A DNA stretch of 64,000 bases, from assembly GCF_000328525.1 (NCBI RefSeq), contig NC_019964.1, positions 186,001 to 250,000 of the forward strand. The letters run 5' to 3'. A program made the position numbers and the translations under genes. The DNA is from Halovivax ruber XH-70. GTDB taxonomy: Archaea > Halobacteriota > Halobacteria > Halobacteriales > Natrialbaceae. The notes below the pieces were generated by a model. It saw only the letters and a list, made by a program, of their open reading frames with translations. It was not told the DNA's origin and searched no databases. Of this stretch, positions 21,188 to 21,563 are shown one piece after another. How positions within the stretch are numbered: the first letter of the stretch is position 1; each line of letters opens with the position of its first letter.

Positions 21188-21512
21188 CGGGCCGGGCGCG
21201 ATTGTGAACAACGTCCAGAAATGCTCGCTTCGCTGCGCCTTTCTGGCCTCCTTCAAATCGCTCGTGTCGTTTTCACTGCTCACGTCCGTTCGCAGGAAAA
21301 CGGGCCGGGCGCGATTGTGAACTACGCCGAGACGGTCCTGCTCGCCTCGCTTCACTCACGGTTTCACCGTTCGTATCGCGGTTCTCACTTCGTTCCGAAC
21401 CGCGCTTCGCTCGGCTGTGCGGGCTGCGACTCGTCTCCTTCAAATCGCTTATGGTCGCTTCGCTCCTCGCGTTTCGCTCGGAGCAGAAGCGGGCCGGGCG
21501 CGATTTGAACAC
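21188..21512 (-). repeat. Tandem array of tRNA-Lys 3'-end copies with hairpin units
   Basis: On the minus strand the tRNA-Lys tail (21512-21490) recurs at 21322-21301 and 21209-21188, steps of 189 and 113 nt. Both downstream copies read GTTCACAATCGCGCCCGG instead of GTTCAAATCGCGCCCGG. The block after copy 2 is TGCGAACGGACGTGAGCAG and after copy 3 is GTGAGCAATCTCGCGAGCGA, nearly identical to the two block variants of the tRNA-Cys array and in the same order. Flanking arms pair: GTTTTCCTGC (plus-strand 21292-21301) with 21269-21279, and CCAGAAA (21215-21221) with TTTCTGG (21240-21246). The unit next to the tRNA is longer, with extra hairpins. No protein is supported here. Confidence 0.85.
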
Positions 21513-21563
21513 GCGACCGTCTGGTTAAAAGCCAGACGCTCTGCCGGACTGAGCTACCGGCCC
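21490..21563 (-). tRNA. tRNA-Lys (anticodon TTT)
   Basis: The 74-nt gene folds normally. The acceptor GGGCCGG pairs with CCGGCCC, the anticodon arm is GTCTGG-CTTTTAA-CCAGAC with anticodon TTT, and the T-arm is GCGTG-TTCAAAT-CGCGC. The discriminator is G and CCA is not encoded. A TTTAAC TATA-like box about 28 nt upstream overlaps the stop region of the next gene. Two extra copies of its 3' end follow downstream. Confidence 0.97.

Follow-up and report, generated by a model that had tools for sequence, protein, structure and literature searches.

Across the class Halobacteria, about half of the tRNA genes appear to be followed by a previously undescribed array of hairpins. Each unit of the array is sequentially composed of a tail, a hairpin module (A), an inverted copy of the T-loop of its own tRNA (iT), a hairpin core (B), and a further copy of the tail; the order is sometimes repeated. 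The arrays suggest that short DNA cassettes are added or shuffled at tRNA genes by a route yet to be described.

The window, meaning the whole stretch of 64,000 nucleotides that was analysed, derives from the Halovivax ruber XH-70 genome (G000; 3.22 Mb, one contig). The sister genome is that of Halovivax asiaticus JCM 14624 (G029). In each genome 41 tRNA genes were scanned, giving 164 tRNAs in four Halovivax genomes. A covariance model built on the iT-B-tail segment, designated R1, was searched against 292 Halobacteria genomes and a phylum sample with 124 genomes outside the class.

The tRNA-Lys and tRNA-Cys arrays

The features of the tRNA-Lys(TTT) locus and of the sister array at tRNA-Cys are as follows, in window coordinates.

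21490..21563, minus strand: tRNA-Lys(TTT) gene (ARAGORN; Rfam RF00005, 68.6 bits)
21511-21490, minus strand: tail T0 of tRNA-Lys, TGTTCAAATCGCGCCCGGCCCG (sequence)
21447..21489, minus strand: unit 1 module A, a T-rich start followed by a hairpin with a tandem GA/GA mismatch (A modules aligned and folded)
21439..21446, minus strand: unit 1 iT, GATTTGAA, inverted copy of the tRNA T-loop
21323..21438, minus strand: unit 1 core B, long form with extra inner hairpins (B ortholog in H. asiaticus)
21301..21322, minus strand: tail copy T1, GTTCACAATCGCGCCCGGCCCG
21260..21300, minus strand: unit 2 module A
21252..21259, minus strand: unit 2 iT, GATTTGAA
21210..21251, minus strand: unit 2 core B, stem GCCAGAAA ... 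TTTCTGG (R1 match at G000:C1:207200-207262, E 6e-9)
21188..21209, minus strand: tail copy T2
21154..21187, minus strand: terminal module A-like hairpin beyond the last tail (also in H. asiaticus)
17539..17614, plus strand: tRNA-Cys(GCA), gene of the sister array (tRNA search of the window)
17615..17947, plus strand: tRNA-Cys array of three A-iT-B-tail units (R1 matches at 203652-203714 and 203764-203832)

The first-pass annotation had described two copies of the tRNA-Lys tail, at 21322-21301 and 21209-21188, following in steps of 189 and 113 nt and sharing one change. The positions and steps are exact on the sequence, and both copies indeed read GTTCACAATC in place of GTTCAAATC. Its equation of the 113-nt step with the tRNA-Cys unit size holds only approximately, because the three Cys copies follow in steps of about 112, 118, and 104 nt. 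The inverted T-loop copy in every unit, the conserved hairpins, and the presence of units at most tRNA loci of the genome were absent from that annotation. Directly upstream of tRNA-Lys lies the gene of a DUF7119 protein (window 21591-22289, minus strand), a position kept across many Natrialbaceae genomes. No array follows the tRNA-Ala at window 13881-13954, within the rRNA operon; the 3′ flank of this tRNA gene is near-identical between the sister species.

The change shared by both Lys copies is not a matter of simple locus-specific inheritance, because the extra T-loop base is shared by tail copies behind Lys, Thr, Phe, and Pro tRNAs (15 of 156 copies). The extra base (window 21322-21313 and 21209-21200, GTTCACAATC; in other genera, GTTCATAATC) never occurs in the tRNA itself. 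At the Thr loci, all copies carry TTCACAATC and the tRNA itself has TTCAAATC; the Thr copies thus descend from older copies and are not fresh duplicates of the tRNA. TTCACAATC was considered as a marker of one B family and rejected, as it follows the tRNAs (Thr, Lys, Phe, and Pro) and occurs with several B families.

Unit anatomy and the match to the adjacent tRNA

In H. ruber, 23 of the 41 scanned tRNA genes are followed by one to three units, each closing in a copy of the gene's own 3′ end. Units are non-coding, about 80-220 nt in size, and too short for genes. The tail copy starts at about G53 of the tRNA and ends with the discriminator base; 5′ of GTTC, similarity to the own tRNA drops to the level seen with other tRNAs. 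Module A begins T-rich and forms a hairpin in which a tandem GA/GA mismatch is constant, as judged by alignment and folding. The mean T content per 8 nt is 3.3 after the tRNA and 3.1 after each copy, against a background of 1.5. Core B is variable, and its ends pair with each other. Inspection by eye of the sequences downstream of H. ruber tRNAs revealed no terminal inverted repeats at the unit ends.

The iT element tracks the T-loop variant of its own tRNA. The T-loop and iT pairs are TTCAAATC with GATTTGAA, TTCGAATC with GATTCGAA, and TTCGATCC with GGATCGAA; T-loop TTCAATTC is paired with iT GAATTGAA in six of six cases, and the iT is also altered where the T-loop is TTCAACTC. Two to four T-stem bases beyond iT agree more often with the own tRNA than with others.

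Own-tail matches were counted within 330 nt downstream of each tRNA in the four congeneric genomes, with unrelated tails and upstream or far-downstream windows as controls. A match follows 95 of the 164 tRNAs, whereas unrelated tails match in 180 of 5306 tests and control windows in 4 of 454, so the own-tail matches are not due to chance. In each genome, 22-25 of the 41 tRNAs carry own-tail units, with a total of 34-44 units. This supports the earlier proposal that a mechanism, rather than chance duplication, underlies the arrays. The proposed check of whether the array tail matches the adjacent tRNA was made: foreign tails score strongly almost only where the tails are near-identical. A candidate exception is Leu-cag of the congener G030, which matches its own tail at 13 of 20 positions and a foreign one at 17 of 20.

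Distribution

R1 matches are present in 286 of the 292 Halobacteria genomes, representing 73 of 77 genera, and in 0 of the 124 genomes sampled outside the class. In H. ruber, all 30 matches at E<=1e-3 sit behind a tRNA with its own tail. Neither finding that the first-pass annotation had named as counting against its proposal, array tails taken from a non-adjacent tRNA or a lack of further examples in related genomes, was made. In other families, 18 of 20 sampled matches follow a tRNA that has copies of its own tail downstream; one of the other two is behind an intron-containing tRNA-Arg, and one is at a gapped assembly. A tRNA-Arg(CCG) gene at G000:C1 2792.1-2792.4 kb (locus L336, 1121-1330) was missed by the RF00005 search and revealed by its own array, which makes the array usable as a tRNA finder.

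Three Halobacteria genomes (G136, G222, and G330) have no R1 match even at E 0.1. The model gives 19 and 13 matches, respectively, in congeners of G136 and G330, and none of 20 tRNAs examined in G136 and G330 is followed by tail copies. The arrays are therefore dispensable. Near tRNAs, the G+C content is 0.48-0.56 in genomes with no or nearly no arrays (G136, G165, and G330; loci L348-L377) and 0.61 in H. ruber; G261, with 0.53, nevertheless has arrays. BLAST also found GA-rich palindromic intergenic sequences resembling B cores (L338, L339, and L340), located away from tRNAs and with no tail copies. They may be related to B cores, or alike in composition only.

Array differences between species

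The tRNA-Lys locus of Natrialba asiatica lacks exactly the 117 nt, one unit plus tail, that are present in N. taiwanensis and N. aegyptia. The flanks of the empty and filled sites can be aligned from the first base. Such empty sites could be losses through recombination between tails.

Comparison of H. ruber and H. asiaticus reveals extra tRNA-proximal units at Cys, Glu, Phe, and Met, and the order [a][b] in one against [b'][a] in the other at Lys-ttt, Ser-tga, Ser-cga, and Val-cac. Distal units differ too, and not the proximal ones alone; loss is therefore common. Strict growth at the proximal end was considered as a rule and is unsupported, distal differences being common as well. Units present in a single congener are found at Tyr in H. 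asiaticus, at Pro-ggg in G032, and at Leu-caa and Arg-tcg in G030.

Modules A and B recombine separately: at Lys and Ser-tga, one A is joined to differing B cores. The B cores at different tRNAs of one genome are 88-96% alike, and a 165-nt B is 92% alike between Pro-tgg and Ser-gga.

In 28 arrays with at least two copies, the tRNA-adjacent copy is better conserved than the final one, and in 4 it is less well conserved (p about 1e-5). The gradient holds when averaged per tRNA species (16 versus 2) and persists when poor copies are left out. The units seem to be older with distance from the tRNA; an age-like gradient of this kind might also arise by gene conversion from the tRNA.

On the chromosome of Natribaculum breve (L341, 809-1740), the tRNA-Phe array consists of a 272-nt compound repeat present three times. 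One unit of this array contains the tRNA-Phe anticodon arm and variable region, then two hairpins placed exactly before GTTCAAATC, and resembles a tRNA split at the T-loop.

Structure of the hairpins

The B hairpin is built from an outer stem of 8-9 bp, an unpaired spacer, an inner stem of 7 bp, and a variable tip. Both stems covary: changes on both sides are seen at 11 of 18 pairs, including all seven pairs of the inner stem, and the covariation exceeds that of all 500 shuffles and of every slid control.

G-U and A-C pairs were counted in 106 non-redundant B cores, and tRNA stems were scored identically as a control. The inner B stem contains 7 G-U and 9 A-C pairs, against 31 and 0 in the tRNA stems; the module A stem contains 18 and 16. 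The outer stem has 56 G-T and 17 A-C, in redundant sequences that mostly belong to one family with GATTTGAG. An RNA of the sense strand should favour G-U. The inner B and A stems show no such excess, and from this pattern of substitution the hairpins are tentatively read as maintained as DNA rather than RNA, with the G-T-rich outer stem pointing the other way.

Origin of the arrays

The units are read here, with a probability of about one half, as short non-coding DNA-hairpin cassettes that accumulate at tRNA 3′ ends through the action of some enzyme, perhaps a tyrosine-type recombinase. The arrays would then work in the manner of integron or CRISPR arrays and be members of neither group. This reading is adopted because their anatomy and turnover resemble integron arrays and casposase insertion, yet no IntI passes the cut-off in eight genomes and H. 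ruber and H. asiaticus lack Cas1. The T-loop and acceptor tail of the tRNA would constitute the attachment site. Each cassette would be flanked by two tail copies, so that the tRNA stays intact. New cassettes would enter adjoining the tRNA, older ones lying further out and decaying; adjacent cassettes would be lost or duplicated through recombination between tails, and B cores would be swapped among different tRNA loci. The iT-B-tail segment is predicted to fold as single-stranded or cruciform DNA, with an outer stem that involves the own T-loop, an unpaired spacer, the covarying inner stem, and the variable tip. Units would then be added by insertion, beyond birth and death through homologous recombination, with the folded DNA as the putative substrate and a tyrosine-recombinase-like enzyme as a possible agent. 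Any such mechanism must allow the descent of copies from copies observed at the Thr loci. A fuller version is tentative, with the odds somewhat against it: a cassette-array system specific to Halobacteria, in which a recombinase would use the T-loop of almost any tRNA gene, recognise the folded hairpins, and add, remove, or reshuffle gene-less cassettes at the tRNA end.

The chief rival, rather unlikely in our estimate, is birth and death through recombination and replication. The tail repeats would expand and contract by unequal homologous recombination, with no dedicated enzyme and no mobility, while template-switch correction of quasipalindromes would keep the hairpins perfect and gene conversion would spread the B cores. 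Alternating repeats (P Q P Q) at a Ser array (L333), the three 272-nt repeats at Natribaculum tRNA-Phe, the similarity of unit c to b in permuted arrays, and the derivation of Thr copies from older copies all fit this explanation, and covariation confined to Watson-Crick pairs is compatible with template-switch correction. The tRNA-proximal extras and the preservation gradient need added assumptions, however, and the origin of a first unit at tRNAs whose counterparts in congeners have none (Tyr, Pro-ggg, Leu-caa, and Arg-tcg, in the genomes given above) is unexplained, as is the exclusive involvement of tRNA tails.

Selection on RNA structure is a less probable reason for the retention of units. 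Transcribed together with the tRNA, the array would be a functional trailer comparable to the rtT RNA of the E. coli tyrT operon, with a role in termination, processing, or regulation. The T-rich stretch after the tRNA and each copy, the conserved and foldable hairpins, and the G-T excess of the outer stem agree with a trailer RNA; the inner B and A stems, with no G-U excess where tRNA stems have 31 to 0, do not, and neither do the absence of entire arrays in some species, the turnover between sisters, and the lack of any Rfam family match. Least probable, and doubtful in the extreme, is an origin from viruses or plasmids that once inserted at tRNA tails and were reduced by deletion to about 100 nt, A and B being their left and right ends with the integrase arm sites. 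tRNA tails are standard archaeal att sites (PMC8371274), and tRNA-tail duplications in Haloquadratum accompany proviruses (PMC3119063). Against this, blastn of the arrays gave no match in 50,697 phage records and a single 62-nt match in 72,556 plasmids; the units are uniform in size and anatomy, with no intermediate sizes among the arrays parsed; and iT is inverted and matched to the own tRNA. Remnants of viruses or plasmids were accordingly rejected as a candidate, the blastn search having given nothing useful and the units being too short to hold an integrase gene.

Comparison with known systems

Mobile DNA integrates most often at tRNA genes. In the literature searched, with few subscription journals among it, tRNA tail duplications were found only in provirus or att-site contexts and no description of the arrays was found; a published account may exist. 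In haloarchaea, the arrays would be a source of error when att sites, proviruses, and tRNA trailers are annotated.

In E. coli tyrT, tandem units lie behind the tRNA gene, each with 19 nt of the tRNA 3′ end. These repeats, which give rise to the rtT RNA, bear the nearest resemblance to the tRNA-tail arrays, but the haloarchaeal arrays follow about half of all tRNAs in a whole archaeal class and contain an inverted T-loop and covarying, DNA-like stems. Transcripts of tRNA operons are the source from which rtT RNA is released (PMC4986893). An Rfam search of window 13000-22500 at E<=1 gave no rtT (RF00391) hit and no family for the arrays. REP/BIME sequences and MITEs are likewise short, non-coding, palindromic, and numerous in a genome; the units differ in lying behind tRNA genes, flanked by host tail copies and arrayed with an age-like gradient.

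The attC site of integrons is an imperfect palindrome with an outer box, an unpaired spacer, an inner box, and a variable tip (PMC2727003). The B hairpin has the same box order, a likeness of geometry only. Integrons also share arrays of short units, GTT at the junction, and reordered arrays, but the tRNA-tail cassettes are gene-less and their repeats match the adjacent tRNA. IntI (TIGR02249) was not found over the cut-off in eight genomes including H. ruber, and membership of the integrons was rejected on this ground.

As in CRISPR arrays and casposon insertion, a direct repeat recurs at each step; in the former the youngest unit lies at the leader. The gradient and the proximal extras fit leader-proximal growth with repeat duplication, and would also fit loss by recombination. 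The casposase of A. boonei targets the 3′ end of tRNA-Pro, reads TCAAATC, and duplicates 14-15 bp downstream (PMC6614799). The tRNA-tail arrays differ in that no terminal inverted repeats were seen and the T-loop lies inside the duplicated segment. Cas1 (PF01867) has no match in H. ruber and H. asiaticus and is present in six other array-bearing genomes. A casposase or Cas1 was rejected as the current agent in this lineage, since the two species lack Cas1 although their arrays differ.

How a DNA repeat can go on matching the gene that it follows is a question for which the arrays are a natural test case. If they grow by insertion, they would join CRISPR and integrons as a third type of ordered DNA array, each preserving a record of past events.
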